Part shown: piece by piece, positions 21,141-40,474 of the stretch
Position numbering within the stretch: position 1 is the first letter of the stretch
How the letters are laid out: each line of letters begins with the position of its first letter
Source: Halostreptopolyspora alba
GTDB lineage: Bacteria > Actinomycetota > Actinomycetes > Streptosporangiales > Streptosporangiaceae
Assembly (NCBI GenBank): GCA_003725585.1
Contig: RJMB01000009.1
Span: forward strand, 6,787 to 70,786
Direction: 5' to 3'
Length of the DNA stretch: 64,000 bases
Notes under the pieces: model-generated
Told to the model about the DNA's origin: nothing
The model's input: only the letters and a program-made list of their open reading frames with translations
Database searches by the model: none
Position numbers and translations under genes: made by a program

Positions 21141-21485
21141 TCAGGAGCGTGACGCGTCGTTGACACGCCAGCCGGAGGGACCCCGCTCGACGAAACCGGC
21201 CGCCGCGAGCAGTCCCAGGCAGCGCAGCGTGGCGTCCATACCGACCTCGGCGGCGACCGCGATACTGGCCACGCCCGCACCCGGCCCGCCCGGAACGGCC
21301 TCCAGGACCCGCCGCGCCTCGGCATCGAGCGGGGCGTGGGGCAGGCCCGCTCCCCCGCTGGGCCCGAGGTCGGCCCCAAGAGGCCCCACCTGCTCGGCGA
21401 TCTCTTGGGCCGCGGTGACACAGACCGCCCGGTTGTCCCGCAACAGCTGGTGGCACCCCACCGACAGGGCCGAGGTGATCGGCCC
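21141..21485 (-). pseudogene. dprA: 3' fragment of dprA, displaced by the inserted element
   Basis: The last ~114 residues of the open frame here are the C-terminal part of DprA: GPITSALSVGCHQLLRDN, AQEIAEQVGPLGADLG and a winged-helix end ending RVNDASRS. The N-terminal part is 18 kb away at 39599-40474. Joining residue 273 of that fragment to this one restores a DprA of about 387 residues in frame. In the integrated state this segment has no start of its own and is translated, if at all, as a tail on the serine integrase. Confidence 0.92.
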
Positions 21486-23423
21486 CGGGACGCCCGTTTC
21501 CGGGCGGTCCGTCTCAGCTCCGAGCACGCGGGGGTCCACCCGACCTTCGACGCGCAACGGCGGCAGCGTGGCCCGCCCCCCGACCGGCGCCCCCGACGTG
21601 GGCAGAGCCGCGCCGATCGCGTCCCACGTGCCGTCAGCCACCCACTTCTTGTAACGGGTGTGGACCGCCTTCCAGTTGCCCAGCTCCGGTGGGAGGTCGC
21701 GCCAACGCGCCCCGGTGCGCGCCTTGTACAGGATCGCCTCAACCACGGTTCGGCTGTCGGCCACCCAGCGCCGCGCCGCCCGCTCCCACTCGGCCACCAC
21801 CGGTTCGACCTCGGCCCACTGCTGGTCGGTCAGCGGTTCGGGCACCGGCCGGTTGCGGTCAACGAACCATTTGGCCAGCGAACACGGCTTGCCGACCTGC
21901 GGCAGCGGCACCGGCCCGGTGACCGTCACCCGCACGTCCAGCAGCTCCAAAACCTCGGCCCGACCGTCGGGGGGCGTGTCGGCCAACCGGTCGCGCGCCG
22001 TGGTGGCCAGCGCCTCCAGGTCTGCGGCGGCCTCGCGTGCGGTCTCGGTCTCGGCTTGCCACGCCTGGGCTTCGGCCCGCATCGCCTCCAGCTGCTGAAG
22101 CTCCTCGGTCAGGGCGCGGGTGGCCGCCTCAACCGCCACGGTCGGCAACCCGGCTCGGGCGTACTCGGTCACGGTCCGGGTTACGGCGTCGTTGCGCTCG
22201 GCTATCTGGCGGTCCAGGTCGGCGATGCGTCCGGCGTGGTCGGTGGCCGAACCGCCCGCCGACTCGGCCCACTCGGCGGCCATGGCTTTGAGGCGGTCGG
22301 GGTCGCCCAGCAGCCGGACCACCTCGTCCCACACGCGTTGTTCCAGCTCGGCGGCCGGGATCTGGGAGTCTGCGCAGCGCTCCGCCCCGGGGTGGTGGGC
22401 CACCCGGCCTTTGCACTTGTACACCGGGCCGACCTCGCGCCCCGACTTGCCGCCTTTGCCGCCCACGTGGTGGGCTCCGCACTGGCCGAACACCCGACCT
22501 GACAGCGGGTACGTCCGCCGCTCGGGGCCAACGCCCGCCCTGGTCGGGCGCAGGGCTTGGCGCAGCTCGGCCACCTCGTCCGGCTCGAAGATCGGCGGCA
22601 GCTCGATCACCACGGACTCGCCGAACTGGGGCTTGCCGTCCTTGGTGAGCTTGGCGCCCCGGCCGCTGGTGGCCCTGGCCGGGTTGCGAAACACCACCCG
22701 GGCCTCGGTTGTGGACTCGGCCAGCAGCCGCGCGCGCAGGTTCACTACTGACCACGGCCGCCCCGAGCGGGTGACCATGCCCATCGCGTTGAGCCGGGCG
22801 GTGGTCGTGCCGACGTCCAAGCCCCGTTCAACCAGATGGGCGTGCGCCGTCCGTAGGATGGCCGACTCGGCCTCGTCTACGACCAGGTACGAGCCCCGGC
22901 GGCCAAGCCCTTCGATGCGCCAGCCGTAGGGCGGTTGCCCGCCTACCCACCCGCCGGACCTGGCCTTAGCCTGCAACCCGTCTTGAAGCTGGTCGCGGAT
23001 GGTGTTGTAGTCCATCTCGGCGAACATGGCGTACATCTGGAGCTGGGCCATACCGGTGGGGGTGGTCGTGTCGACGATCTCCTGCGTGGCCGACACGAAC
23101 CCGACTTCGAGGTCTTGAAGCGCCCAGATGTAGCGCCAGAACGCCCGGCCAACGCGCCCGATGCGGTTGTACTTGTGCACCACGACCACGTCGATACGCC
23201 CGGCCTCGGCGTCGGCCAGCAGCCGGTCCAGGGCGGGGCGCGAGGTCAGCGACCCCGACACCCCTTCGTCAATGTAAGTCTGAGCCGGGGTCCAGCCCTT
23301 CCGGTCGATGTACTCGGCGCACCCCTCTATCTGTGTCTCGATGCCGTAGCCCCGGGTCTGCTCCTCGGTCGAGACCCGGGCATATGTAGCCGCCCGCATG
23401 CGGGGCGGTGGTTGGATGGCCAT
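21141..23423 (-). CDS. Large serine integrase, fused in frame to the DprA C-terminus across attL
   Basis: The frame encodes 760 residues. Residues ~10-150 are the resolvase domain with the nucleophile Ser18 (YARVSTEEQ) and GVSGSLTSRPALDRLL. The Recombinase domain follows (GQPPYGWRIEG, then LNAMGMVTRSGRPWS). A zinc-ribbon region has CGAHHVGGKG, YKCKG and ERCAD, followed by a long coiled coil (DLDRQIAERNDAV...). Residues ~530-607 (LTDQQWAEVEPVV..., ILYKARTGARWRDLP, KKWVADGTWD) resemble the DUF4096 N-terminal domain of IS5-type transposases. From residue ~647 on the sequence is DprA. In the excised circle the frame would instead run 18 codons into the right end and stop at 39599, giving about 665 residues. 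Confidence 0.92.
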   Translation of the reverse strand: MAIQPPPRMRAATYARVSTEEQTRGYGIETQIEGCAEYIDRKGWTPAQTYIDEGVSGSLTSRPALDRLLADAEAGRIDVVVVHKYNRIGRVGRAFWRYIWALQDLEVGFVSATQEIVDTTTPTGMAQLQMYAMFAEMDYNTIRDQLQDGLQAKARSGGWVGGQPPYGWRIEGLGRRGSYLVVDEAESAILRTAHAHLVERGLDVGTTTARLNAMGMVTRSGRPWSVVNLRARLLAESTTEARVVFRNPARATSGRGAKLTKDGKPQFGESVVIELPPIFEPDEVAELRQALRPTRAGVGPERRTYPLSGRVFGQCGAHHVGGKGGKSGREVGPVYKCKGRVAHHPGAERCADSQIPAAELEQRVWDEVVRLLGDPDRLKAMAAEWAESAGGSATDHAGRIADLDRQIAERNDAVTRTVTEYARAGLPTVAVEAATRALTEELQQLEAMRAEAQAWQAETETAREAAADLEALATTARDRLADTPPDGRAEVLELLDVRVTVTGPVPLPQVGKPCSLAKWFVDRNRPVPEPLTDQQWAEVEPVVAEWERAARRWVADSRTVVEAILYKARTGARWRDLPPELGNWKAVHTRYKKWVADGTWDAIGAALPTSGAPVGGRATLPPLRVEGRVDPRVLGAETDRPETGVPGPITSALSVGCHQLLRDNRAVCVTAAQEIAEQVGPLGADLGPSGGAGLPHAPLDAEARRVLEAVPGGPGAGVASIAVAAEVGMDATLRCLGLLAAAGFVERGPSGWRVNDASRS
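21481..21485. other. attL: left integration junction
   Basis: The dprA coding-strand sequence GGGCC (GGCCC on the plus strand) is common to both junctions and lies in the same codon phase of the VPGP motif. To its left is the dprA 3' part, to its right element DNA. Serine integrases need only a short identical core, so 5 bp is adequate. Exact crossover bases cannot be fixed from one genome. Confidence 0.8.
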
Positions 23424-23496
23424 GCTGGGAGTCCCTTCTCAGCGATCAGGCCCGGCCGGGGGCTGCATCCCTGGCCGGGCCACCTGATGCGGATGT

Positions 23497-23931
23497 TCAG
23501 AGCAGCGTGAACTTGGTGGTGGTGCGCGCCGCGCCGCTGCGGTCGGTGTAGGTGAAGGTGTCGCCCTCGACATGGCCGGTGCGCTCCCAGCGCCCGACCT
23601 TGGCGCGAACGGTGTCGGCGTCGGCCGTGGCCTGCTCCTGCTTGGCTTGGGCGCGGCTGATGCCGCTGGCCACGTGGCGGGCGAACCCGAAACGGCTGGC
23701 GGCCTCGCTGGCCTGTACGGGCTCGTCGGGCGCCCCGGCCAGCGCGACCAGGTGGCCAGCGGCACCGGCCCGGATCAGGAAGCCCTTGAGTTTGGCGTCG
23801 TGACCGGGGGCAAAGTCACGCCGCGTGGTCTTGGTGCAACCCGTCGTTTCACCCGTGGTTGCGTCGGCGTACTTGGAGCAAGTGCAGGGGGTCTCGGCCT
23901 TGGCGGGGGCCGTCTTGGTCTCGGCGGTCAT
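23497..23931 (-). CDS. Cys-motif / APGHD protein, element-specific
   Basis: The protein has 144 residues. The N-terminal part has CTCSKYADATTGETTGC followed by TRRDFAPGHDAKLKGFLI. A paralogue with the same order of CxC, TxGC and APGHDxKLKGxLI lies at 37159-37452. The C-terminal half (KVGRWERTGHVEGDTF ... KFTLL) resembles a small beta domain. The CxC...C plus F-x-P-G-H-D pattern is frequent in short mobile-element and phage proteins and probably binds a metal; the role is unknown. It lies 73 nt upstream of the integrase on the same strand and may regulate it. Confidence 0.65.
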   Translation of the reverse strand: MTAETKTAPAKAETPCTCSKYADATTGETTGCTKTTRRDFAPGHDAKLKGFLIRAGAAGHLVALAGAPDEPVQASEAASRFGFARHVASGISRAQAKQEQATADADTVRAKVGRWERTGHVEGDTFTYTDRSGAARTTTKFTLL

Positions 23932-23955
23932 GGCAGGCTTCCTTTCGGTTGGGGG

Positions 23956-24315
23956 TTAGGCGGCGAGCGTGTAGGCGCTTGTCCAGGGCTGGACGGCCAC
24001 CACGTCGCCGTCGTCGGTGGTCACCGAGTCGGCAACGGGGGTTACCGGTGCCCGGTAGTCGGCCAGGTGGGGCGCGCGGTGAATGCGGAAGTGCGAAACC
24101 CTGTCGAGCCGGAACGTGCGGACCTCGCCCCGGCGTCGGCACCAGCCCCGGACGACCACGTCGCCGCTGGCGGTGACCTCGACGGCGTGGACCTCGACCA
24201 CGCGGCGCGACACCCGGCCGTCTGCGGCCACGTACCGCAGCGTGACCGCACGCTTGGAGTCCATGGCGCCGACCAGGTGGGCCAGGGTTCGGCCGGTGCT
24301 GGTGTTGATCCGCAT
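23956..24315 (-). CDS. Small WYL-domain protein
   Basis: The protein has 119 residues from the ATG of MRINTSTGRTLAHLV, with AGAGGAG upstream. The body is a WYL-type ligand-binding domain (residues ~18-80): KRAVTLRYVAADGRVSRR, VVRGWCRRRGEVRTFRLDRV, SHFRIH. There is no HTH; WYL domains bind nucleic acid or nucleotide ligands and commonly regulate mobile or defence genes. It lies in a leftward series with the 42-residue gene, the APGHD protein and the integrase, which suggests a role in integration control. Confidence 0.75.
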   Translation of the reverse strand: MRINTSTGRTLAHLVGAMDSKRAVTLRYVAADGRVSRRVVEVHAVEVTASGDVVVRGWCRRRGEVRTFRLDRVSHFRIHRAPHLADYRAPVTPVADSVTTDDGDVVAVQPWTSAYTLAA

Positions 24316-24375
24316 CGTGGTCTCCTCTCGGTGGGGGGCGGGGGCGCCCAATCGGGCGCCCCCGGGTGGGTTGGG

Positions 24376-24504
24376 TTAGCGGGTGGCCAGCTCGGCCAGC
24401 AGGGTGTCCAGGTGGCCGCCCTTGTCGCCGTTGTCGAGCTGCATCTGGACGAGGATCTTCAGGGTGTCGTCGGTGGCCTGGGCGAGAGCGGTGGCGAGGT
24501 CCAT
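24376..24504 (-). CDS. 42-residue small protein
   Basis: The gene starts at ATG with AGAAAGGAGC just upstream, a strong ribosome site. The product begins MDLATALAQATDDTLKIL and ends LDTLLAELATR. It is amphipathic and largely helical, with acidic faces. It precedes the WYL gene by 60 nt and probably belongs to the same transcript. No family is recognised. Excision factors (RDFs) of serine integrases can be this small, but nothing here proves that role. Confidence 0.6.
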   Translation of the reverse strand: MDLATALAQATDDTLKILVQMQLDNGDKGGHLDTLLAELATR

Positions 24505-24524
24505 TTCGGGCTCCTTTCTGAACC

Positions 24525-24547
24525 AAAAAAGGGGGCGCGGCGCCCCC
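24525..24547 (-). terminator. Intrinsic terminator or attenuator before the 42-residue gene
   Basis: Read leftward, a 7-bp GC stem (GGGGGCG / CGCCCCC, loop CCG) is followed directly by six T. It sits 20 nt before the start of the 42-residue gene and just after an A/T-rich stretch (24548-24600). It either ends transcription from the DUF2637 gene or attenuates a promoter in the A/T-rich stretch. Confidence 0.75.
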
Positions 24548-24607
24548 ACTAATAAAATTAAATCACTGGAATTTAACCTCCCACAATTCCCTTTAAATAC
24601 AAGTCGA

Positions 24608-24635
24608 CCCCGATTCCGATAACTCAGAATCGGGG
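24608..24635. repeat. 9-bp inverted repeat
   Basis: CCCCGATTC and its exact complement enclose a 10-nt A/T-rich loop, 19 nt after the DUF2637 stop. There is no T-run on either strand. It could be a terminator hairpin for the DUF2637 gene or an operator in the small intergenic region. Confidence 0.5.
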
Positions 24636-24654
24636 CCTAAAGAATGGCGGGGGG

Positions 24655-25365
24655 TCAGCCCGGGGTGGTCACTGACTCGGCCTTGACCTGCCTGGCGTAG
24701 CGCCGCCCACTGGTCAATGACACCCCCAGCTGGTCAGCCAGCTGCTGGGCGGTCAGGTGGGGGTCGTCAGCGAGCAGCGCCCTGACCTGGTCCAGCCGGT
24801 CAGCCTTGGTCACGTAGTGATCAGGGGCGGGGCCAGGTTCGACCAGCGGCAACGCCACCTGGTCAAGCTGGTCAGGGGGCGCCTGGTCAAGCTGGTCAGG
24901 GGTGGCGGCAACCGGGTGGTCGGGGCCGGGCTCAGCCTGGTCAGCCCCGGCGTCGGGGGCGGGCGCCCTGGGCGGCAGCAGCAGCGTCAAGGCGATGCGG
25001 TAGGCCAGCTCCATCGAGACGATCGGCACCAGGCCCACCACGAGCCCGAACGCACCGGCGAACTGCCAGCCGACGAGCCCGTTCGCGAAACCCGTGAACC
25101 CGAGGGCAAGCACGAAGGCCGCCCTGGCCCACCAATCGCGGAACACCAGGGCCACCAACAGCCCGGCCAGCGCCAGCGAGTCGACCATCCCGGCCGACGC
25201 GTAGGCGGTCCACCCGGTTTCGCCGTAGCTGGCCATGAACCCGTGCAGCCTGGAGTACGACACCGCGAACCCGGTGGCGGTCAGGCAGGACAAGATGGCC
25301 AGGGCCACCAACCGGACCGCGCGCCGGGGGCCGTCCGGATCTGCTGAAATGGAAGAGTCGGTCAT
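24655..25365 (-). CDS. DUF2637 membrane protein with C-terminal HTH (SpdB-like)
   Basis: The protein has 236 residues from ATG (MTDSSISADPDG) with GGAG 6 nt upstream. The N-terminal half has four hydrophobic helices in DUF2637 order (LAILSCLTATGFAVSYSRL, YASAGMVDSLALAGLLVAL, FVLALGFTGFANGLVGW, FGLVVGLVPIVSMELAYRI). A Pro/Asp linker with repeated DQLDQ units follows, then a winged-HTH-like end (LTAQQLADQLGVSLTSGRRYARQV). DUF2637/Spd proteins are typical of actinobacterial plasmids and integrative elements, where they relate to intramycelial spread. Confidence 0.8.
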   Translation of the reverse strand: MTDSSISADPDGPRRAVRLVALAILSCLTATGFAVSYSRLHGFMASYGETGWTAYASAGMVDSLALAGLLVALVFRDWWARAAFVLALGFTGFANGLVGWQFAGAFGLVVGLVPIVSMELAYRIALTLLLPPRAPAPDAGADQAEPGPDHPVAATPDQLDQAPPDQLDQVALPLVEPGPAPDHYVTKADRLDQVRALLADDPHLTAQQLADQLGVSLTSGRRYARQVKAESVTTPG

Positions 25366-25436
25366 TGAACACTCCGCGATCGACAAGGGCCACCCCGGCG
25401 TCTGGCGATGAGCGGGGTGGCCCGATTCGTGTTTGG

Positions 25437-25901
25437 TTACTGGCGCCGGGGGCGCTGCTGACGTTGGGCGCCGCCGTGGGCGGCAATCCGAACCTCGGGT
25501 GCGGGCTTGTCAGCCGCGCGGCGGTGGCTCTTGACCCGCTCGAAGACTTCGGCCCTGGTGGGCTTCTTGGACTCCGGTTCGGCCACGCGGTCGGCCACCG
25601 AGGTGGCCGTCTTCCTAGCCAGGTCGGTCGCGCCGCGCCAGTCGCCTTCAGCGGCCAAGTTGGCCACACGGTTGGCCGCTTCCGTCGCCTCTTGGGCTAG
25701 AGCGTCGTCCAGGCCGACGCTGCGGTGTTGAAGCACCGCTTCGGCGCGCTCCCGGCCGCCTGCATTGCGCGCTCCTAGCAAAGCGTTCTGGACGCGCCCA
25801 CGAACTGTCTTGGTGTGGGTGTCGCCACCCTGGGGCTTAGTCAATGGTTCTCTCCCCGCTGGACGTGGTTGACTGGAAGCGTTGCGTAGCTTCGTAGACA
25901 T
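25437..25901 (-). CDS. Hypothetical basic helical protein
   Basis: The protein has 154 residues from the ATG of MSTKLRNASSQPRPAG; the open frame is longer, but the part upstream lacks coding character. It is rich in Arg, Ala, Glu and Gln, with a predicted long helix around AEAVLQHRSVGLDDAL ... ANRVANLAAEGDWRGATDL and a basic, Gln/Arg-rich end. No family is recognised. A role in DNA binding or mobilisation is possible but unsupported. Confidence 0.5.
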   Translation of the reverse strand: MSTKLRNASSQPRPAGREPLTKPQGGDTHTKTVRGRVQNALLGARNAGGRERAEAVLQHRSVGLDDALAQEATEAANRVANLAAEGDWRGATDLARKTATSVADRVAEPESKKPTRAEVFERVKSHRRAADKPAPEVRIAAHGGAQRQQRPRRQ

Positions 25902-26034
25902 CGGAGCGCGAGGGCGACCACCGGTTGGTCCTGGTGGTCGCCCGTTCCGTGTCAAAGGGACCGCGACCACGTACGCCCACGGCCCACACGAGGCGCAGGC
26001 CAAAACCGCTCGGCCCAGGCGGCTGGCTGGTCGC

Positions 26035-26553
26035 TCACAACGCCACCTCGCTTCCGGTCCGCAGAACGCGGTCAAGGGCGCGACGTCGACGCTTGTAGTC
26101 GCGGACATGGGCGCGGTGGCACTCACGACACTCGCGCTTCCCGTTGGGGCGGGTGCGGGTGTTGGCCTGGTCGAACGGGTGTCCCCGGGGGCAAGCCACC
26201 TTGGCGGCGTTGGGGTGCTGCCCCAACCGGATCGAATCCGCTGCGTTGTCGGCCGCAGTCGCCCACCTAAGATTGCTGAGTCGGTTATCCGTCTTACAGC
26301 CGTTCCAGTGGGCTGCTTGATGGCCCTCGGGGCACGGCCCGACGAACGCCTCCAGCACGGTTCGATGAACCGCGCGGCGGTGCTCCTGGCCATCGCGCCA
26401 CAGGTCGGCGTACAGGTAACGGTTCCGGTTCGGCCGCAGTTTGAGTAGCTCGCCTTCGGGGTTCCGGTGGAAGCTGCGCACGCGCCCGGCGTCGGACACC
26501 CGGTAAAGCCCCTCGAACCCGACCACCGGGCGCCACTGCTCCGCTTCAGTCAC
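26035..26553 (-). CDS. HNH homing-type endonuclease, copy 2
   Basis: The protein has 172 residues from a GTG that overlaps the end of the first HNH gene by 8 nt. It has a NUMOD4 domain ([19 protein letters not shown]) followed by an HNH core ([22 protein letters not shown]) and a C-terminal zinc-binding part ([18 protein letters not shown]). It is closely similar to the adjacent upstream gene, including [20 protein letters not shown]-type segments, so the pair arose by tandem duplication. Confidence 0.85.
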
Positions 26554-27025
26554 GGCCGCCCCCTTCGGACGAAGCGGCCCGGCGGCGGCGGTCTCGCCAC
26601 TCGCGGCGGCGGTCGCGTTGACACGTGCGGCACTTGCGCGCGCCGTTCGAGCGGGTGATGGTGTTCTCCGGTGTGAACGCGTGACCTCGACGGCACGCCA
26701 CCTGAGGCGCCCACTCAGCCGGGTCGACCCACTTAAGGTTGGACAGGTCGTTATTGGTCCGGTCGCCATCCAAATGGGTGGCCTGGTGGCCGTCGGGGGG
26801 TGGGCCAACGAAGGCAAACAGCACGAGTCGGTGGACGAGGCGCCGATGAACCCGGCCGTCGCGGCACAAGCCGACCAGTAGGTACCCCTTCTGGTCTGAC
26901 CCCGGCCTCAGTAGCTCGCCTTCGGGGTTCCGGTGAAAGCTGCGCACTCGTCCGGCATCGCTGACCTCGTATAGCCCCTCGTAGCCGACTACTGGCAGCC
27001 ACCGTTCGGTTTCGACTTCAGCCAC
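26546..27025 (-). CDS. HNH homing-type endonuclease, copy 1
   Basis: The protein has 159 residues from GTG. It has the same layout as its neighbour: NUMOD4 ([19 protein letters not shown]), HNH core ([20 protein letters not shown]) and C-terminal cysteines ([18 protein letters not shown]). Its start overlaps the end of the XRE gene, giving a translationally coupled trio. Such free-standing HNH enzymes nick or cut DNA and may promote spread or exclusion. Confidence 0.85.
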
Positions 27026-27236
27026 GGTCGCCCCCCGCCTCGTCGGCCACCAGGTCGCGCGGGTCGATGCCCAGCGCGTCGGCCAACCGGAATACGTACT
27101 TGGCGCTGGGCGCGCTGGCGCCACGCTCCCACCGGGCCACGCGCATTTCGCCTGTGCCGATAAGCCGGGCCAGCTCCCGCTGCGTTAAACCTTTCCGCTT
27201 CCGGGCGGCCTTTATGACTTCTGCTATTAAGCGCAT
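27018..27236 (-). CDS. XRE-family HTH regulator
   Basis: The protein has 72 residues from ATG (MRLIAEVIKAARKRK). A Cro/C1-type HTH covers most of it: GLTQRELARLIGTGEMRVARWERG ... YVFRLADALGIDPRDLV is the full motif order. It leads the XRE-HNH-HNH series and may repress it. Confidence 0.8.
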   Translation of the reverse strand: MRLIAEVIKAARKRKGLTQRELARLIGTGEMRVARWERGASAPSAKYVFRLADALGIDPRDLVADEAGGDRG

Positions 27237-28871: not shown

Positions 28872-29020
28872 CCGCCCCCGCCGACGCGGCAGCGGACGAG
28901 GAGACCACCGAAGTCATTTGGACCGCCGCCCCCATGGGCGACGCCGCCTATCGAAGGCTCTTGCGCCTGCTGTTCGCACCCGCCGACGACGACCGAACCG
29001 GGGGCGACGCCGATGACTGA
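28868..29020 (+). CDS. 50-residue small protein in the replication operon
   Basis: It starts at a GTG overlapping the XRE stop (GTGA) and ends 8 nt into the replication gene, so it is coupled on both sides. The product is acidic at both ends with a central helix (DAAYRRLLRLLFAP). No family is recognised; existence rests on the double overlap. Confidence 0.6.
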   Translation: MTAPADAAADEETTEVIWTAAPMGDAAYRRLLRLLFAPADDDRTGGDADD

Positions 29021-31268
29021 CACGCAGCAGCCCCCCGCCCAACCCCAGGCGGGGGGCCACCAGAGCCAACCGAACCCAAACTCTGATTCCAGTGAAGCAG
29101 GCCCTATGACCAGCGCACAAACTGACAGTCCTTGGGTGGCTCGGGCTGAAGCCGACGGCGTTCTCGTCGTCAGCCACCAGGGCGGGGCCATGGAGTCCGT
29201 GCGCGACGAGCGGGGCGTGTTGGCCAACGCCCTGGAGCTGGCCAAGCTGGGGCACCCCGTGTTGCCGTGCTGGGGCGTGCGCGACGATGGCACGTGCCGC
29301 TGTCCCCACGGTGAGGCGTGCAAGAGCACGGGAAAGCATCCGCTCAGCCGCAAGGGCTTCGCCCCCAACGGCCTGGACGACGCCACCACTGAGGCCGACA
29401 CCATCATCGGGTGGTTCGCCCAGGACAGCGGCAAACTCAACTTGGGGTGGCGCCTGGACGGGCTGGGCGTGCCCGACGTCGACGTTGCCGACGGCAAGAT
29501 CGGCGGCCAGACCGTGGCTGAGCTGGAGGCCGAACACGGACCCCTGACCCCCACGCTGACCATTCGCACGGGTCGGGGTGGCCTTCAGTACGTCTACGAG
29601 CTGCCCGGTGTCGACACCGAGCAGTACGGCGACTCGCTGGGCACCAACGTCGACTTCAAGCGCGGCGCGGGGGCCTACGTCATGGTGCCCGGGTCGAAGA
29701 CGGTCGACGTGTACCGGATCGAGTCGGGCAAGCTCGGTGAACACGAACCGCTGCCCCAGTGGGTGCACGAGGTGGCACGCAGGAACCCGCTTGACCAGGT
29801 GCGACAGCGCCGCAAACAGCAGCGGGAGGCCACCGCGCGCGCTGAGGCGATCGACAGCACCCGATTGGCCGAAAGTCTGGCCGAGTGCGACTCGAAGGCC
29901 GCATGCCTGAACCTGTCCCCTGGCCACCCCGACCGCAGCTCTTACGACTGGGTCAAGAAGACGGCCGGGTACGAGGCCCGAGACGCCCGGGACACGACTG
30001 CGCGGTCGTATGCCGACTACTACGCGGCGATGTGCGCCTACGACGGGGCGTCGGACCACCCGCGCTACGACTACGACCCCGAAAAGTTCGACGAGATCCT
30101 CACGTTTGTGTGGCGCGAGGAGTCAACCAAGCGCGCCGAGGTTTCCACCAACCAGGCAACGCGCGAGCTGTGGCGCGCGGACACCGAGGCGTACAAAGCT
30201 ACCGGGGAGTACGACAACGAGGCGAACAAGGCACTTCTGCGCACGGTCACCCAGGAGGAGGCCCAGAAAGAGCGAGCCGCCGCCGACTGGAAACCCCCGG
30301 CCGACGAGCGAGCTGGCAACCTGGCCGACCGCTTGGCCAGGGAACGCCCGAAGGTGCCGCACCGGTTCGAGGGGCTCGGCAAGGTCGGGGCCAACACAAC
30401 CGTCGCGGCTCAGTACAAGGCCGGAAAGACCACGCTGGTGTGCAATCTGGTGAGGTCTCTCGCTGACGAGGTACCGCTGTTCGGTCGGTTCGAGTTGAAC
30501 ACGCCGCTTTCAGGCAACATCGCCGTGTTCAACTACGAACTCGATGACGACGAGTTCGAGGACTGGTTGGCCGATCAGAACATCAAGCACCCTGACCGAG
30601 TGCATCTGCTGCACCTGCGGGGCGAGAAGCTACCGCTGGTGTCAGAGCCGGTAGAGGAGTGGGTGACGCAGTGGCTGGCCGAGCGCGACATCGAGGCGTT
30701 GATCATCGACCCTGCGGCCAGAGCGTTCAGCGGGTGTGGGGACGAGAACAGCAACCAGGACGTGGCGGCGTTCACCGAGGCTGTGGATGTGATCAAGCAC
30801 AACGCCGGGGTGCGAGACCTGTGGATGCCCACCCACACCGGCCGGGGCCAGGAGGAAGCCGCCGAGCGTTCGCGCGGAGCCACGCGCTGGGACGACTGGC
30901 CGGACGTGCTGTGGAAGCTGGTCAAGGGCGACACCGGCAACCGGTACTTCGGCGCGCAGGGACGCAAGGTCAACCAGGCCGAGATCGAACTGTCATTCGA
31001 CTCGGGCACAGGGCGCCTGGGCACCACAGGTGGCGGTGACCGGCAGTCGGCAGCCGAAGAGACGGAAGTGGGTCGCGCGGTCCAGCTACTGCGAACCCAC
31101 CTCAGTCAGCACGGGGAGTGCTCCAAGAGCCAACTGTCGGGGCAGATCAGCAGCACCAAGAAGAAGGCCGAGCGCGTCATGAAGCTGGCCATCGAGCGGG
31201 GCAAGATCATCGAGCACAAAGCCGACAAGCCCGGCAAGCCACATCAACTCTCTCTTCCTTCTTCTTAA
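29013..31268 (+). CDS. Primase-polymerase / helicase replication protein
   Basis: The protein has 751 residues. Residues ~65-265 form a bifunctional primase/polymerase (Prim-Pol) domain: LGHPVLPCWGV, GKHPLSRKGF, LGWRLDGLGVPDVDVADGK with the catalytic D-x-D, TIRTGRGGLQYVYELP, GAGAYVMVPGS. A helical linker follows. Residues ~455-670 form a RecA-like helicase domain with a Walker A variant AQYKAGKTTLV, IAVFNYELDDDE (B-like) and LIIDPAARAF. The end resembles a winged helix. Such fusions initiate and unwind at plasmid origins. An iteron-like array lies right after the gene. An internal ATG at residue 32 is an alternative start. Confidence 0.88.
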   Translation: MTDTQQPPAQPQAGGHQSQPNPNSDSSEAGPMTSAQTDSPWVARAEADGVLVVSHQGGAMESVRDERGVLANALELAKLGHPVLPCWGVRDDGTCRCPHGEACKSTGKHPLSRKGFAPNGLDDATTEADTIIGWFAQDSGKLNLGWRLDGLGVPDVDVADGKIGGQTVAELEAEHGPLTPTLTIRTGRGGLQYVYELPGVDTEQYGDSLGTNVDFKRGAGAYVMVPGSKTVDVYRIESGKLGEHEPLPQWVHEVARRNPLDQVRQRRKQQREATARAEAIDSTRLAESLAECDSKAACLNLSPGHPDRSSYDWVKKTAGYEARDARDTTARSYADYYAAMCAYDGASDHPRYDYDPEKFDEILTFVWREESTKRAEVSTNQATRELWRADTEAYKATGEYDNEANKALLRTVTQEEAQKERAAADWKPPADERAGNLADRLARERPKVPHRFEGLGKVGANTTVAAQYKAGKTTLVCNLVRSLADEVPLFGRFELNTPLSGNIAVFNYELDDDEFEDWLADQNIKHPDRVHLLHLRGEKLPLVSEPVEEWVTQWLAERDIEALIIDPAARAFSGCGDENSNQDVAAFTEAVDVIKHNAGVRDLWMPTHTGRGQEEAAERSRGATRWDDWPDVLWKLVKGDTGNRYFGAQGRKVNQAEIELSFDSGTGRLGTTGGGDRQSAAEETEVGRAVQLLRTHLSQHGECSKSQLSGQISSTKKKAERVMKLAIERGKIIEHKADKPGKPHQLSLPSS

Positions 31269-31271
31269 CCA

Positions 31272-33781: not shown

Positions 33782-34273
33782 TTAGTCTCGGTCCTTCCCT
33801 GGGCACACCCGGTGATCGGCATCCCACCAGATCGGGTAGAAGACACGGGGATGTTCAGGCGTCAGGACTCCCCACAGCCGACCCATGTTTCCCTCACGGA
33901 ACCGAAAGAGTTCGTCCCACTCTTCCAGCTTCAGTTCATGCAGCCGATTCTGGGCTTCCTTGCACAGATTTTCGACAGGGATGGGCTTGTTTCTAGGACC
34001 GCGACGCTTCTTGCCCCCGGTCTGCTGGTTAAAGATTTCCGTCCAGGTCAGGGACTCCATCTCGCGGAGGAGGGCGACGATCTTAAGGAGCGTGGCTTCA
34101 TCGATCCCCCACGACCAGCTCCCCTGGTGATCACGGTCGAGCAACGAGAGACGCCACAGAGGACTTTGGCCATCAACGTCGTGACTGGCGGGAAGCCGAC
34201 GTGGCACGCGGTTCGGCTGCTCGGGTACGACCGAAGCGGGAAGTCGCTTCGGCCTCTTGCCGCCCTTGCTCAT
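33782..34273 (-). CDS. Putative toxin partner of the Panacea antitoxin
   Basis: The protein has 163 residues, with its ATG overlapping the antitoxin stop (ATGA), so the two are translationally coupled. A basic N-terminus (MSKGGKRPKRLP) precedes WSWGIDEATLLKIVALLREME and ESLTWTEIF. The C-terminus has the compact motif MGRLWGVLTPEHPRVFYPIWW then DADHRVCPGK. I do not recognise a named toxin family. Being the coupled neighbour of a Panacea-domain gene is the reason for the call. Confidence 0.55.
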   Translation of the reverse strand: MSKGGKRPKRLPASVVPEQPNRVPRRLPASHDVDGQSPLWRLSLLDRDHQGSWSWGIDEATLLKIVALLREMESLTWTEIFNQQTGGKKRRGPRNKPIPVENLCKEAQNRLHELKLEEWDELFRFREGNMGRLWGVLTPEHPRVFYPIWWDADHRVCPGKDRD

Positions 34274-34725
34274 ACAGTCTCGGCGTCGTCCCTGTCGAGC
34301 AGCGAGCTGTAGAACTCCTTCATCGCGTCCGGCGGGATCTCAGCGTTGCTGCCGACATGGGCGGGAAGGCCCGCCCGGGCCTTCCTCCAAGGGTCTTCGT
34401 TGTGGGTCATCTCGCTGAGCTGCTTCCCCGTTAGCTTCCCGTAGGTGTCGACCACAACGTCGATGCTCTTGCGCTGGTCAGGGGTCAGGTGGTCGACGTC
34501 ACCACGCGGCCACTCCCCAACGGAGAACTGGCCGCGGTGCTCGGCGAACAGTTCGCGTACGACAGGACCGTTGGCCCATGCCTCGATGCGCTCCTGGAAC
34601 AGGGGGTCCTCGTCCCAGACCAGCGACCACGCCTGCGAGTAGTAGACGAGCTTCTGAAGCTTCATGGTGGACACGGGGCCGACCTTGGACAGGACGTAAG
34701 CGGCTACGTCATGTGCGCTAGCCAC
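34270..34725 (-). CDS. Panacea (DUF4065, SocA/GepA-like) antitoxin candidate
   Basis: The protein has 151 residues from GTG (VASAHDVAAYVLSKVG) behind AAGGGAGACC. The Panacea signature is complete: VSTMKLQKLVYYSQAWSLVW, WANGPVVRELFAEHRG, VDTYGKLTGKQLSEMTHNEDPW and a late ARAGL. Panacea domains act as interchangeable antitoxin domains paired with many unrelated toxins, and are usually the first or second gene of a two-gene unit, as here. The gene is preceded by an A/T-richer promoter region. Confidence 0.82.
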   Translation of the reverse strand: MASAHDVAAYVLSKVGPVSTMKLQKLVYYSQAWSLVWDEDPLFQERIEAWANGPVVRELFAEHRGQFSVGEWPRGDVDHLTPDQRKSIDVVVDTYGKLTGKQLSEMTHNEDPWRKARAGLPAHVGSNAEIPPDAMKEFYSSLLDRDDAETV

Positions 34726-34918
34726 GGCGGTCTCCCTTCCTGTCGGTCGCGCTGTGCAGTTTGCTGTCGACTGCGGGTCGTGCGCGGGGGGGGTGGGCAC
34801 GTCAGAGATCCCAACTCAATCGTATGTCCGATTCGCATCTATTTCTGTACCCCTGGGGTGCGACAAATCTATCTCTTCGCAACGCTCGGCATTGGCAAAA
34901 CTACTAAACGCACCCATG

Positions 34919-35464: not shown

Positions 35465-35750
35465 GATCTACGAGTTCAGTGCTCCTGCGGTGACTCCACC
35501 CCATCACCCGGGCGTCGCTCCCGCAATCGGTAGGGGTGCCCCAGCTACCGCCCTCCCCCGGTACCCCCAGTACGGCAACGACACGCCGGGCTCCTACGGG
35601 GCTCATCACTCGTCGTTCGGGCCGGCGCAACGAGAAGTGACAGCAAGGCGTGTTCAGGCCGACACAGCCTCGTAATCCGCTCGTGACCCCACTCAGAGGG
35701 CCGTCACAGGTCGGCCACACCAGCGCCCCTTATCGGTGGCGAGTGACATC

Positions 35751-36125
35751 ATGTCGGGCATGAGCAGACATGAAAGCGACGAGGACCGTGTGTTGGACGC
35801 GTTCCGGCGCTGGCTGATCGCCGAGGGCTGGACCCCCACCACGCCCACCGACCAGTGGACCGACATCGAGGCGGTGCGCGGCGACGAGCGGCTGATCGGT
35901 GAGGCCAAGGGCCGAACCACCGAGAGGGGCATAGACGCTGACATCGCGTACGGCCAGCTGCTGCGCCGGATGACGGACCAGTCCCCGACCATCCGCTACG
36001 CCCTGATCGTGCCGACCTCGGCCGTCAAGGCTGCCGAGCGCGTTCCCTCTGCCGTGCGGCACCCGCTCCGAATCGACCTGTACGAAGTCACCGACGACAA
36101 CCGCGTACTTCCCCGCCCGGCGTAG
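35751..36125 (+). CDS. Small PD-(D/E)xK nuclease-like protein
   Basis: The protein has 124 residues from ATG, with GGCGAG 7 nt upstream. A possible restriction-endonuclease-like core is visible: EDRVLDAFRRWLIAEGWTP, then DIEAVRGDERLIGEAKGRT, which supplies D...ExK. AYGQLLRRMTDQSPTIRYALIVP follows in the usual order. The small size and lack of a methyltransferase suggest a stand-alone nuclease or a repair-type domain. The gap 35465-35750 holds nothing else recognisable. Confidence 0.6.
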   Translation: MSGMSRHESDEDRVLDAFRRWLIAEGWTPTTPTDQWTDIEAVRGDERLIGEAKGRTTERGIDADIAYGQLLRRMTDQSPTIRYALIVPTSAVKAAERVPSAVRHPLRIDLYEVTDDNRVLPRPA

Positions 36126-36201
36126 CCCCTCCTCGGCCGCCCGTGGGGTCTCGGAGCCGCCCGACGCCACCTGGCGCCGAGCGGCTGAGGGTGGTTAAGG
36201 G

Positions 36202-36639
36202 CTAGCTGGCCGGACCTCGGGGGTCGTAATAGGCCCCCTCGCCCCGCTGTTCGAGCTGGTTGGCGAACCACGGAGCCGACAGCATCGAGAACCGCCGCCC
36301 GGCCCGAGGCGGGGGGTTGTCCAGCTCCCGCACGAAGTCCTCAAGCTCCGGTTGGATGAGCGTGGGGGCGTACGGGGTGTCGGCTTCGACGGCCACCGCA
36401 ACCCACAGGTTCGGAGTGCGCCGGATACGCCAGGTGTCGCCGTACACCTGCCGCAGCACCGCCAACACGGCCGTTTCAAGGTCCGCTTCGCAAACCAGAC
36501 GGGTCATGTGCTCGCAGTGGGCGCCCCACACCCGCGAGCCGTCCCGGGCGACGTTCACCAGCCGCACCTCGGCCCCCACCGCTTCGGCCCACGCTTGCAG
36601 TTCGCTCAGGTCGTTTAGCTGCTTGATGTCGGGGTTCAC
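36202..36639 (-). CDS. Hypothetical protein
   Basis: The protein has 145 residues from GTG with GGAGG upstream, its start overlapping the stop of the preceding 50-residue gene (GTGA). It contains LQAWAEAVGAEVRLVNVARD and WRIRRTPNLWVAVAVEADTP. The end is Pro/Gly-rich. No family is recognised. It belongs to a two-gene leftward operon driven from the palindrome region. Confidence 0.55.
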   Translation of the reverse strand: MNPDIKQLNDLSELQAWAEAVGAEVRLVNVARDGSRVWGAHCEHMTRLVCEADLETAVLAVLRQVYGDTWRIRRTPNLWVAVAVEADTPYAPTLIQPELEDFVRELDNPPPRAGRRFSMLSAPWFANQLEQRGEGAYYDPRGPAS

Positions 36640-36788
36640 CGCAGGGCCTCCAATCCGGCCAGGGTGCGCCGCAGCAGCTCGGCTGAAAGGGCGTCCTGCG
36701 TTGCTTTTTGGCGCTCCCAGATCCGGTAGTACGGCCGAACGCGGTTGGAACGGCGGGGCGCCGCTGTGGTTTCATTAGGCACTGTCAT
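36636..36788 (-). CDS. 50-residue small protein downstream of the palindrome
   Basis: It begins MTVPNETTAAPRRSNRVRP and contains a basic helix (YRIWERQKATQDALSAELLR). It is coupled to the next gene by a GTGA overlap. It is the first gene after the divergent promoter at 36856-36894. The function is unknown. Confidence 0.5.
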   Translation of the reverse strand: MTVPNETTAAPRRSNRVRPYYRIWERQKATQDALSAELLRRTLAGLEALR

Positions 36789-36855
36789 CGACTCCTCAGC
36801 AGTCGGTGGCCACACCCCCGGCCTGTGGCTGCAGGCGCGGGGGCCTTTTCTATCC

Positions 36856-36894
36856 ATTATACATGACAACACATGACCTCACGTGAGGTCATGT
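36856..36894. promoter_or_regulatory. Perfect 24-bp palindrome and leftward -10 box
   Basis: ACATGACCTCAC is followed directly by its exact complement (36871-36894). Read leftward, TATAAT at 36861-36856 is a consensus -10. The matching -35 position (about 36879-36885) falls inside the palindrome, so a repressor bound there would block leftward transcription. A half-like word ACATGAC is repeated at 36861-36867. The adjacent GntR gene is the natural candidate for the binding protein. Confidence 0.75.
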
Positions 36895-36922
36895 GAAAGC
36901 GCAGGTCAGCGACTATTGTTAT

Positions 36923-37162
36923 ATGGCGATAGACCTGGACGGTCCTGAGTTCCTGCGCGATCAGGTGGCGGCGATCCTGCGCGCCCGGATCGAGTCGGGC
37001 GAGTACCCGCCTCGGCGCCGTATCCCACCTGAGGCCGAGTTCATCGAGGAGTTCGGGGTGTCACGGCCCACCGTGCGCGCCGCGTTGGCCATCCTCGAAG
37101 ACGAGGGCCGCATCGTCACCCGGCGCGGCAAGGGCCGGTTCGTGGTCGGGCCGGAAAGCTAG
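36923..37162 (+). CDS. GntR-type HTH regulator, DNA-binding domain only
   Basis: The protein has 79 residues from ATG (MAIDLDGPEFLRDQ); a GTG at 36893 would add ten residues but lies in the palindrome. The winged HTH is complete: AAILRARIESGEYPPRRRIPPEAEFIEEFGVSRPTV (read in order), RAALAILEDEGRI, GKGRFVV. There is no effector (UTRA/FCD) domain, so it resembles a minimal KorSA-like regulator of actinobacterial integrative elements. It probably binds the adjacent palindrome. It is convergent with the next gene (4-nt overlap). Confidence 0.8.
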   Translation: MAIDLDGPEFLRDQVAAILRARIESGEYPPRRRIPPEAEFIEEFGVSRPTVRAALAILEDEGRIVTRRGKGRFVVGPES

Positions 37163-37452
37163 TCCTGCGGGTCGATCCGCTCGGCCACGTCGGGCCAGCC
37201 GAGCTGGCGACCCCACTGGGCACTCCCCTGGCCGGTGGCCACGTCGCCGCTGGTTTTGAACACCCAGCACCCGGCCACGCCCCACCGAATCAAGTGGCCT
37301 TTGAGCTTGCCGTCGTGGCCGGGCGCCCACGTGCGGCTGGTCTCGCTGTCGCACCCGGTTGTCTCGACGCGCCACGTTGTCTCGCCGTCTGGCACCAGCC
37401 CCCAAAAGCTGGCGCACTCGCACTGCTGTCGTTCGTTGTCAGATGACGTCAT
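37159..37452 (-). CDS. Cys-motif / APGHD protein, second paralogue
   Basis: The protein has 97 residues from ATG (MTSSDNERQQCECASFWG). It shares with the protein at 23497-23931 the order CxC, TTGC, R-x-W/F, APGHDxKLKGxLIR: here RTWAPGHDGKLKGHLIRWG. The C-terminal half differs. Both copies lie near opposite ends of the element. The function is unknown; metal binding through CxC...C...H is possible. Confidence 0.62.
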   Translation of the reverse strand: MTSSDNERQQCECASFWGLVPDGETTWRVETTGCDSETSRTWAPGHDGKLKGHLIRWGVAGCWVFKTSGDVATGQGSAQWGRQLGWPDVAERIDPQD

Positions 37453-37555
37453 GTCGACTGACCCTAGCGCACCTGGTGGGCACGTGTCGGGAGAACGCCG
37501 AACCAATTGGGGCAAAGCGGGGGCGCGTGTCCGTGACGGCTGGGACCATCGGGGC

Positions 37556-38260
37556 ATGACACCAGAAACGTGGGCCGCGATTGCCGCCGCAGGGGGCGCT
37601 TGGGCCGCCGCCCTCGTGTCCATCGTGTCGGCAATCTTCACCGGAGTCCAGGTCAAAGCCGTCAGAAAGCAGACCGGGCACCAGGAGCGGGCGGCCGACG
37701 CAGCGAATGAGCAAACCAAACTTCAGCGCCAGATAGCCAGGGACGCCGCCCAGCCCTACGTCTGGGTGGACGTGCGCGCGGATGAGGCACAGGGGTCGGC
37801 GTTTAACCTGCTCCTTGGTAACTCGGGGCCGACGTTCGCGCACAACATCCGCGCCACCATCGACCCACCACTGCCGAGTGACAACAGTTCCTCCGCGAAG
37901 GGAGAAGCCGCACAGCGGCGACTGCGCGAGGGCATCAAGTCGCTCGGTCCTGGCCACAGGCTCGTCTGGTTTATCGGCATTGGCCGTAAGATCGTGGAGG
38001 AGGACGTCCCGCAGCTCCACACGATCACGATCGAGGCTGAAGGGCCATACGGCCCGGTCGGGCCGCTGACCTACGACCTCGACCTCGCCGACTTCCGCGA
38101 AACCCGTGACGCGCCTGAGGGCAACCTGTACTTCGTCCGCAAGGCGATCGAAAAGATTGAGGAGAAGCTCCCGAGCCCAAAGAAGCCGCTGCGGGTGGTC
38201 GTCGAGGGCCGGGGCGACGAGCAGGGGCCGCCCAAGTCTCTGGTGGACGGTTCCTCGTAG
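37556..38260 (+). CDS. Membrane-anchored protein, unknown
   Basis: The protein has 234 residues from ATG. One N-terminal helix (WAAIAAAGGAWAAALVSIVSAIF, split here by no charged residue) is followed by a short coiled coil (AADAANEQTKLQRQIARDAA) and a predicted beta-rich domain (YVWVDVRADEAQGSAFNLLL, FAHNIRATIDPP, HRLVWFIGIG, HTITIEAEGPYG). The layout is typical of proteins exposed on one face of the membrane, of the kind seen in prophages and integrative elements; the role is unknown. Confidence 0.55.
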   Translation: MTPETWAAIAAAGGAWAAALVSIVSAIFTGVQVKAVRKQTGHQERAADAANEQTKLQRQIARDAAQPYVWVDVRADEAQGSAFNLLLGNSGPTFAHNIRATIDPPLPSDNSSSAKGEAAQRRLREGIKSLGPGHRLVWFIGIGRKIVEEDVPQLHTITIEAEGPYGPVGPLTYDLDLADFRETRDAPEGNLYFVRKAIEKIEEKLPSPKKPLRVVVEGRGDEQGPPKSLVDGSS

Positions 38261-38376
38261 CGGCGCCGCGCCCCCGCACACGCGCGGCCCCACCGCCCGG
38301 TGGGGGCCGCGGGCCGTGGCCGGACCGCTACGCGAGGTCCAGGGCGAACGGGAGCCGACCTCTGGCGGGCGGTGCC

Positions 38377-38403
38377 AAAACGGCCCCGCGCGTGGACGGG
38401 GCC
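38377..38403 (-). terminator. Terminator of the parA gene
   Basis: Read leftward, a 7-bp stem (GGCCCCG / CGGGGCC) with an 8-nt loop is followed by TTTT, 16 nt after the ParA stop. A second GC hairpin nearer 38283-38312 (GCGGCCCCACCG paired with CGGTGGGGGCCGC, one bulge) can serve the rightward gene at 37556. Confidence 0.7.
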
Positions 38404-38418
38404 ATTCCGGTCCGGGTG

Positions 38419-39480
38419 TTAGGAAGCCGGTTCGGTTTCGCCAACCGAACCGGCTTCCCCATCCAAGAGCGCAACCAGCTCATCGACCACTTCCACGGCG
38501 TTCCTGCGGTACTCCTCGTTCACCTGGATGCGGTGTCCCATCACCTCCAGGCGGCCAGAGGGCAGGCAGTAGAAGGGGCAGCCCCGGGCAAAGGCCACCA
38601 CGCCCGTGGTCTGGAAGTCCCGGATGTCGACCACACCGTCTTCGATCTCACCGAATGTGAAGATCTCCTGGTGTGAATGCAGGATCTTCGTGACGTCGTT
38701 GTCGATCGAGCGCAGCACAACCGCGTAGGCAGAGGCAGGCCCCATGTACTGGGTCAGACGGTTCTTGGCGATCACATGGACCTTCGGAAGCCCACGACCC
38801 GCCTCTCGGAGCCGAGTTGCAAAGGCGTAGGACGCGTAGATATCTGACGGCAGCTTCATACCAAAGACCAGCGAGAACGCGTTCTGAATCGCTCGACGGG
38901 ACGAGTCGTCAGCCATAACGGGGAGAACAAGCCGGTCGGTGCTGGACAGAGCGATCTGCGTGTAGATCGAGAAGCTCGGGTTGGCGTCAATGAAGACCAC
39001 GTCGTAGTCATCGCGCAGCTGGTCAAGGAAGTCCGAGAGCCAGCCGATCACAGACACCCAGGCGTTGGTCCCCGGGATCTGAGTGTTCGCCAACGTCGAG
39101 ATCGCGTTGGACTGAAGCTCAAGAAGCGGATCGCCGCAGACAAGGTCGATGTTGCCGGGGATCGACTCGTTGTACTCCTGGGGGCGGGTGATGAAGTCCC
39201 TGGCCTCGAAGCCGGGTGAACTGTATGGGGCAGGCAGCCGAAGCTGGAAGTACCCCCCAATGGTTGCACGCTGCGTTTCCCCCTGTCGAAGCAGGAGGTT
39301 TTGACTACCTCCGTCGGTCAACCCTCCGAGAAGCAGCTCGGACATGTTGGCCTGCGGGCAGACGTCGACAACCAGCACCCGCTGCTCGGGGTGCTTGTGC
39401 GCGTAGGCGCAAGCCGACTGGAAGCACAGACTGGTCTTGCCGGTGCCGCCCTTGTTATTCCAGAACCCATAGACGATCAT
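38419..39480 (-). CDS. ParA/MinD-type partition ATPase
   Basis: The protein has 353 residues from ATG (MIVYGFWNNKGG) with AAGGAGG 8 nt upstream. The deviant Walker A is KGGTGKTS. VLVVDVCPQANMSELLLGG (A'/switch I) and YDVVFIDANPSFSIY (Walker B region) follow. It is larger than minimal ParA, with an extra C-terminal part (YCLPSGRLEVMGHRI, EVVDELVALLDGE). ParA proteins segregate or position plasmids. No ParB or centromere-like repeat is visible beside it, but the element could use it while in the replicating circular form. Confidence 0.85.
   Translation of the reverse strand: MIVYGFWNNKGGTGKTSLCFQSACAYAHKHPEQRVLVVDVCPQANMSELLLGGLTDGGSQNLLLRQGETQRATIGGYFQLRLPAPYSSPGFEARDFITRPQEYNESIPGNIDLVCGDPLLELQSNAISTLANTQIPGTNAWVSVIGWLSDFLDQLRDDYDVVFIDANPSFSIYTQIALSSTDRLVLPVMADDSSRRAIQNAFSLVFGMKLPSDIYASYAFATRLREAGRGLPKVHVIAKNRLTQYMGPASAYAVVLRSIDNDVTKILHSHQEIFTFGEIEDGVVDIRDFQTTGVVAFARGCPFYCLPSGRLEVMGHRIQVNEEYRRNAVEVVDELVALLDGEAGSVGETEPAS
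38422..38458. repeat. 16-bp perfect inverted repeat in the end of parA
   Basis: GGAAGCCGGTTCGGTT and its exact complement enclose five nt and cover the last 12 codons of ParA, directly before its stop. A stem of this length inside coding sequence is unusual and it lies just upstream of the T-run terminator. Confidence 0.6.
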
Positions 39481-39489
39481 GAGTGACAC

Positions 39490-39550
39490 CTCCTTGTCTT
39501 TCGTGTACTATCTTACGTACTTAGCATACACAACAAAGTCAGAAAATGAC
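39490..39550 (-). promoter_or_regulatory. A/T-rich promoter region of parA
   Basis: About 60 nt of A/T-rich sequence lie directly upstream of the parA ribosome site, at the right edge of the element. Leftward, TAAGAT is preceded at 15-nt spacing by TTGTTG. Short inverted words (GTGTA ... TACAC, GTAC ... GTAC) could bind a regulator. The exact promoter cannot be fixed. Confidence 0.45.
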
Positions 39551-39598
39551 ACGCCCGCCCAGCGATGCCACCGGGTGGGACCGTGGGCGATCAGATGG

Positions 39599-40474
39599 CT
39601 ACGCCACGTCTAGCGCGAACGGGACCGGACCCAGAGCGGCCCCCCAGAAAACAGGCCCGGGAACCGCCATGAGCGAGCGACACAGCTGAAGGCTGTGCTT
39701 GGCGGTGTTCAGCGCGCCACTGCGCCGCCCGGCCTCGACGACAACCGTGCCCGGCGTGAGGGCGGCGATCAGGCGGTTCCGGACCAGGAAACCGTGCCGG
39801 GCGGGCCTGGTACCCAACGGGTGCTCGCTCACGAGCGCGCCTCGCACCGCGATGTCACCGAACAGGTTCTCGTGACCGCTCGGATAGTTCATATCGAGCC
39901 CACAGGCCAGGACCGCGACGGTTGGGGCACCACCGGCCAACGCGCCACGGTGGGACGCCGCGTCGATTCCGTAGGCGCCCCCGGACACCACGCACCAGGA
40001 ACGCTCGGCGAGCGCGCACGCGAGTTCACCGGCGACATGCGCCCCGTACCCGCTCGCCGCCCGCGAGCCGACCATGGCCACCGAGCGCAGGCAGGCGTTG
40101 CGGAGGTCGTGGGCTCCGCGAACCCACAGAGCGTAGGGCCGGTGCTCGGCGAGCTGGTCGAGCTGGGCCGGCCACTCGGGATCGCCCGGGGTGACGAGCC
40201 GCACTCCCAGATCGGCGGCGCTGGTGATCAGGTTCTCGGTGTCGAGGGTCGCGGCGCGTTCCCGCCAGAGCTCGGCCCGGGCGGGATCGGGTCCATGGAC
40301 CGAGCCGGCCGAGAGGGGCTCGCCCGACAGCAGCGCGTGCCACACGGCGGCCGCACCGCGCTCGGCGAGCAGGGAGCCCACGAACGGGTCGGCGGGGGGT
40401 ACCGCGGCGGTCAGGCAGGCGCGCGCCACAGCCTCACGGGAGGGGTCCCCGGGTTCGGCCACGGGGCTGGTCAC
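39599..40474 (-). pseudogene. dprA: 5' fragment of dprA (DNA-processing protein A), truncated by the element
   Basis: The fragment has 291 codons from a GTG that overlaps the comM stop (GTGA). Residues 1-273 are DprA: the N-terminal part and most of the Rossmann domain (RSVAMVGSRAASGYG, VVSGGAYGIDAASHRGAL, HPLGTRPARHGFLVRNRLIAA, GTVVVEAGRRSGALNTA, MAVPGP). After VPGP the frame runs into element sequence and ends FALDVA. The missing C-terminal ~114 residues are at 21141-21485. DprA loads RecA on incoming single-stranded DNA; loss of the end of the Rossmann fold and the winged helix probably inactivates it. Confidence 0.93.
39654..39658. other. attR: right integration junction
   Basis: The same GGGCC (coding strand) as at attL lies here in the same codon phase of the VPGP motif of dprA. 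To its right is the dprA 5' part, to its left element DNA. Together with attL it sets the element length at about 18.17 kb. Confidence 0.8.

Follow-up and report, generated by a model that had tools for sequence, protein, structure and literature searches.

A serine-integrase element inside dprA of Halostreptopolyspora alba exchanges 3′ ends between its integrase gene and the host gene

The dprA gene of Halostreptopolyspora alba is split by an integrated element that encodes a large serine integrase (Int), and the two genes have exchanged their 3′ ends. The locus lies in a 64,000-nucleotide stretch of contig RJMB01000009.1 (positions 6,787 to 70,786; the whole stretch is hereafter called the window), for which an initial annotation had proposed such a split. 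The exchange is confirmed by the coordinates, by joining of the flanks and by insertions at the same codon in other elements. We consider it likely that the arrangement, with the element's attachment site attP inside int, acts as a switch on Int through the trade of 3′ ends at dprA, and that it brings with it a reversible loss of DprA.

In the window, codons 1-273 of dprA occupy 40474-39656 on the minus strand; the frame then continues with P274 and 17 residues of foreign origin, VFWGAALGPVPFALDVA, to a stop codon ending at 39599. The int gene encodes 760 residues, the last 113 of which (648-760) are the C-terminal part of DprA. The distance from the attL centre to the attR centre, and hence the length of the element, is 18,173 bp. 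Scripted joining of the flanks, which recreates attB, gives an in-frame DprA of 386 residues; joining the element ends, which recreates attP, gives an in-frame Int that terminates with the 17-residue tail now closing the broken DprA. These in-frame joins bear out the proposal that the att site lies inside both genes and that recombination alters both products. The genome has a single locus with a DprA domain. Its match to PF02481 covers profile positions 4-192 of 212, so the cut lies within the conserved domain; the intact protein of a relative of the same genus (genome G001) reaches 209. Neither the excised circle nor an empty site was seen in the assembly of the window's genome, and the excised form is one that we infer.

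The same relative, G001, carries a single uninterrupted dprA, whose product is 80.8% identical over 386 residues to the joined DprA of the window. Both halves of the split gene match this one gene (Table 1), and they are not parts of different alleles, a possibility that the initial annotation had raised. The G001 protein has a match in 334 of 341 family genomes. Among the matches listed, only those of the window's genome (G000) and of G018 end at the insertion point; two further split cases, G221 and G232, lie below the listed part. Truncated matches in G010, G011, G013, G017, G021, G028 and G032 were considered as split genes and rejected as paralogues (37-41% identity). Four near-complete genomes (G302, G069, G296 and G194), three of them in the genus Nocardiopsis, have no DprA-domain match, from loss of dprA or from assembly gaps.

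Homologues of Int occur in 9 of 297 family genomes at an E-value of 1e-40 or better, in 5 of 394 class genomes at 1e-90 and, by profile match at 1e-120, in 2 of 396 phylum genomes; each count includes the window's genome, and the three sets are overlapping samples. A contig scan with a single Int query returned no relative, and one with an alignment query returned two Nocardiopsis. Four of the nine family homologues sit in dprA: those of the window, of G018 (99% similar to the Int of the window), of Nocardiopsis sinuspersici DSM 45277 (G232; 65-67%) and of N. flavescens CGMCC 4.5723 (G221; 58-59%). A fifth insertion in dprA comes from IMG/VR record IMGVR_UViG_2554235391_000003 (G698; 50-51%). 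The elements measure 18,173 bp in the window, 18,374 bp in G018 (a secondary insertion included) and 21,118, 20,692 and 13,783 bp in the remaining three. Both junctions are in frame in all five, and all five insertions fall at the same codon; on this ground, the arrangement is more than chance. In three other members of the family (G002, G016 and G211; Ints 43-45%) a separate DprA locus is found, its domain covered to 204-210, so their elements are placed elsewhere. G191 and G312 have weaker, partial Int matches.

The elements of the window and G018 are 99.85% identical over 7,305 bp, whereas their host flanks are only 77% and 72% identical. From this disparity the element is judged to be mobile and to have moved recently between genera. 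The G018 copy differs at the end that carries the dprA tail, where other genes replace ParA. Its int gene (L043, about 514-1808) is interrupted by inserted DNA carrying a 306-residue frame, which by eye only resembles an IS3-type transposase; given this insertion and a frameshift, dprA of G018 may be broken permanently.

That Int natively ends in the 17-residue tail had been suggested from the window, and it is supported independently by other integrases. The five tails of the dprA group read PVFWGAALGPVPFALDVA, PVPGGSAPAPGGGVPFTLNVA, PVSGASALGPAGVVPFVLDVS, PVSGASALGPAGVVPFVLNVV and PLPGGAALAPIRFRVAIAA. A search with an alignment of eight sequences turned up related Ints on IMG/VR contigs; these have similar ends, such as GVIRFRMDLAA (L088), VIVRFSMAVAA (L098) and APFTFSVLLAA (L099); in L090, L092 and L095 a short extension follows the motif. 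An end in -AA occurs in 10 of 12 distinct close relatives of Int, most with a similar strand-like motif. Among 35 more distant serine recombinases from that scan none ends this way, and among 235 other long frames at these loci 11 do. The set of 12 leaves out L091 (a copy of L090) as well as L096 and L101, which run off their contigs; its members are mutually related, so that the count does not stand for 12 independent events, and free and integrated states are not distinguished in it. In addition, the coding sequence of the tail is conserved up to the stop codon and not past it: between the window and G221, 18 of 24 bases agree before the stop and 9 of 24 after it.

The loss of such a tail recurs at another target. 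In G405, of the same class, an Int 43% like that of the window ends in an unrelated string, while SVIRFRMELAA followed by a stop codon lies upstream on the same strand; AG is the centre common to both ends, which are 3,151 bp apart. Once rejoined, the Int end is in frame and reads LVEGKIDPRLLIRVPAAPEQTVPSVTVTPSVIRFRMELAA, closely resembling LVEGKIDPRLLIRVPAAPEGTVTSMPVTPGVIRFRMDLAA in L088. On the side of the tail there is no in-frame host protein partner. Since related Ints bear the tail and G405 loses it at a different target, attP inside int and the loss of the tail upon integration extend past the dprA group, whose own addition is the reciprocal in-frame fusion with a host protein. The G405 element itself (L170, contig positions 834158-837309) holds an integrase of the same type, a small gene and, by eye, an HNH-like frame, and looks like a minimal integrase element.

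As the initial annotation had noted, GGGCC is common to both junctions; the crossover probably does not fall on it. The centre of the attP arms in five elements is CC, one base upstream of GGGCC (GG on the plus strand; Table 1), and in the four elements other than that of the window the bases past CC differ between attL and attR. GGGCC was therefore set aside as the crossover in favour of the adjoining CC. With this centre given, the arms of attP agree at 23 of 40 positions in the window, at 28 in G018, G221 and G232 and at 22 in G698 (shuffle p ≤0.00035 in all five), and those of attB at 11-18 of 40 (p 0.04-0.57). When the joined region was scanned unguided, the same CC centre came out in all five, with codon-shuffle p-values of 0.002 in G018, G221 and G232 and 0.012 in G698. 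The central dinucleotide predicted from symmetry is CC in the dprA group and AG in G405. Among 14 other Ints, arm symmetry at the 3′ end was significant in L088 (p 0.042) and in the Int of Spernnie (p 0.002); it was not in the other 12, so that for them an attP within int is not shown. The symmetry of attP extends about 36 bases from the centre in G221 and G232, so that the DUF4096 domain of Int (described below) could bind an outer att motif.

The Int of the window matches Resolvase (1.7e-36), a zinc (Zn) ribbon (4.6e-07), DUF4096 (1e-23) and the phrog_95 integrase profile (2.3e-86). The Recombinase model gives no score in this protein and scores in its relative L088. Its place among large serine integrases is based on Resolvase and the Zn ribbon in the window, on Recombinase in L088 and on structure matches of L088. 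The L088 Int with its own tail, modelled from 16 sequences, reached a mean predicted local distance difference test score (pLDDT) of 79.6 and a predicted template modelling score (pTM) of 0.39. Its best matches in the PDB are Bxb1, an attP/attB-bound serine integrase, a serine integrase with its directionality factor, and PhiC31; the tail is predicted as a β-strand, 660-666. DUF4096, a domain of IS4/5 transposases, is placed near the C-terminus of the window's Int (residues 531-603, region 22000-21600). It is weaker and under the Pfam cut-off in the Ints of the Streptomyces phages Nishikigoi and Spernnie. The relative L095 has no DUF4096 and keeps the tail.

We propose that attP falls within the 3′ end of int, at the point where the protein body gives way to a short C-terminal tail of its own, and that the VPGP codons of dprA serve as attB. 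As read from the sequence, integration trades 3′ ends: Int is deprived of its tail and receives about 113 residues of DprA, and DprA, cut inside its conserved domain, gains the Int tail. Excision should restore int and dprA in frame, and with them DprA is expected to be restored. Loss of the tail would most likely alter how active or how long-lived Int is, and the protein made from the free circle would then differ from that of the integrated element, as in Myxococcus phage Mx8; in this manner integration would change the stability or the directionality of Int. The directionality of serine integrases is usually ascribed to a separate directionality factor. The removed tail may act as a degradation signal (degron) or as a structural strand. 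To the cell, the cost or benefit would be a reversible loss of DprA; such a loss should hamper RecA loading in transformation, as it is known to do in other bacteria.

Several observations weigh against this proposal. The Int of G018 is broken upstream of the junction by the insertion and frameshift, so that the swap is a dead end there; G221 and G232 are close relatives, and the five dprA cases are not fully independent. The window's own attP arms are the weakest of the five, with an unguided symmetry p of 0.33, not significant. Details of the tail differ between members of the dprA group, L089 and L097 have no -AA end, and the confidence of the L088 tail is modest (mean of 71 in the last block, below 50 at 641-658). 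Searches for displaced tails by arm symmetry and motif gave none that was convincing in G545, G016 and G002, and a search by motif only found none in G211. A DNA pattern search for a free attP in IMG/VR returned one match, attributed to chance, in L087, which contains neither an Int nor a meaningful match to DprA.

There is a real possibility that the arrangement is a by-product: attP would simply happen to overlap the 3′ end of its integrase gene, frame and tail would come from DNA constraints on the recombination site and from a single ancestral alignment with the VPGP codons, and the swap would disrupt dprA and regulate nothing. The att arms are inverted repeats at the DNA level over the first dozen codons of the tail, the frame match of all five elements has one origin, and the known domains lie in the core of Int and not in its tail. 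Against this reading, the strand-like motif is located outside the symmetric arms, survives changes of length that keep the frame and is found again in relatives with other targets. Rather unlikely, in our estimate, is that the native end is an ssrA-like signal which makes free Int short-lived and which integration moves onto the truncated DprA. The frequency of -AA among related Ints agrees with it, as do the tags of the host transfer-messenger RNAs (tmRNAs), which end in FALAA or VALAA (ANSKRTEFALAA in G000, G221 and G232, ANSKRTEVALAA in G018, ANIKSDSQSYALAA in G405), with FALDVA ending the tail of the window; BPs-type mycobacteriophages, too, bear ssrA-like tags on repressor and integrase, of which the one on the repressor is lost on integration (available text of PMC9262239). 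However, -AA is retained in G698 alone, the other four dprA-group tails ending in VA, VA, VS and VV; the predicted strand points to a structural element, and the relatedness of the 12 Ints lowers the weight of their count.

We regard it as very improbable that the C-terminal part of DprA serves Int as a useful new domain, for instance in DNA binding or in contact with a host recombination protein. In all five elements the frame stays open across the junction into the DprA part, and the ratio of nonsynonymous to synonymous substitution rates (dN/dS) of this part, 0.37 between the window and G001, indicates purifying selection; yet this value falls within the spread of intact dprA pairs and may predate the insertion. 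Moreover, G405, at its other target, receives an unrelated host end, and the model of the Int-DprA fusion (mean pLDDT 52.8) is too uncertain for use. Relaxed selection on the same part after insertion was also considered and remained inconclusive: the ratio of dN in the C part to dN in the N part is highest of 38 pairs for window-G001 (3.87), with an intact pair nearly as high (3.64) and window-G072 at 2.21. Against 16 more distant controls, which are not comparable in distance, the window gives 3.68 versus 1.18-1.86.

In this locus one recombination event rewrites both the C-terminus of Int and a host recombination protein, and the state of integration is written into two proteins. It gives a testable system for the role of the extreme C-terminus of serine integrases. 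For builders of recombinase tools, an Int read from an integrated genome would have the wrong end: annotations of G405 and of the dprA group are without the native tail. A wider version, which we advance as doubtful, is that serine integrases with attP in their own gene are widespread, that integration cuts off a conserved C-terminal strand or degradation signal and makes Int a sensor of its own state, and that the dprA group grafts the cut end in frame onto a truncated DprA, a host recombination mediator that is thereby off or marked for destruction, excision reversing both.

Table 1. Features of the dprA-inserted element and its junctions (positions in the window).
Feature	Position	Strand	Basis
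dprA 5′ part up to predicted attR centre	39662..40474	-	PF02481 1.5e-61; 85% to intact G001 dprA
Displaced Int 3′ end fused to dprA (P274 + VFWGAALGPVPFALDVA + stop)	39599..39659	-	related tails at the same place in G018, G221, G232, G698
Predicted attR central dinucleotide (CC on minus strand)	39660..39661	.	centre of attP arm symmetry
Predicted attL central dinucleotide (CC on minus strand)	21487..21488	.	centre of attP arm symmetry
Large serine integrase, integrated form (Int 1-644, VPGP, DprA C-terminal residues)	21141..23423	-	domains, phrog_95
3′ portion of dprA, in frame with the upstream Int codons	21141..21486	-	71% to G001 DprA C part, 113 residues
ParA-like gene	38419..39489	-	AAA_31 4.3e-18; phrog_164 6.1e-38
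Primase-polymerase / AAA replication protein	29013..31268	+	Prim-Pol 2.3e-21; AAA_25 6.5e-25
SocA/Panacea-like antitoxin	34270..34800	-	PF13274 2.2e-19

Among the other genes of the element, that of the SocA/Panacea-like antitoxin adjoins a 163-residue frame, a possible toxin (33782-34800), and two adjoining genes each encode an endonuclease of the NUMOD4 plus HNH kind (26035-27124). No FtsK/TraB-type conjugative translocase was found among the selected element frames scanned; a weak FtsK/SpoIIIE match (E 0.0082) lies at 24658-25386.

The initial annotation had likened the element to phages with attP in a repressor gene, the arrangement that defines integration-dependent immunity. Here attP lies inside int and a repressor at neither att site, and phage Mx8 is the closer precedent. 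Its attP lies inside int, which on integration acquires a different 3′ end (IntP to IntX; available parts of PMC6070905, and noted in those of PMC4383910 as well), and with it the specificity of the integrase changes (PMC6070905). Replacement of the 3′ end of int of this kind is seen in silico in the window, G018, G221, G232, G698 and G405. The integrase of Mx8 is of the tyrosine type. Here, in contrast, a large serine integrase is involved, and a named host protein takes part in a reciprocal swap that is in frame on both sides. In the literature covered, with most subscription journals and preprints outside the search, we found no description of a serine integrase with attB in dprA or, as far as titles and abstract openings show, with attP inside int, and nothing that joins DprA, Nocardiopsis and integrase.

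In BPs-type mycobacteriophages, integration strips a C-terminal ssrA-like tag from the repressor, a remnant being left at attR (PMC9262239, PMC9934374, as far as their available text goes). There, too, a protein of the element loses its C-terminal tail; the protein is the repressor, however, and the att site in the cases described is a tRNA gene, whereas here it is Int that loses a tail, and this tail becomes the in-frame end of a host protein. Mobile elements are also described in the competence genes comK, comYC, comFA, comM and ssbB (PMC4774983, PMC12637031). As in those, a gene for the handling of incoming DNA is broken, here dprA, split in five cases, but dprA is not among the targets in the available parts of the two sources. 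The SP-beta prophage of Bacillus subtilis lies in spsM, which is rebuilt upon excision as dprA would be; in the available text of PMC4191935 no exchange of integrase ends is mentioned. What sets the present element apart from these systems is that the proposed attP-inside-int switch belongs to a serine integrase and is coupled to a reciprocal exchange with a host protein that keeps both frames open.

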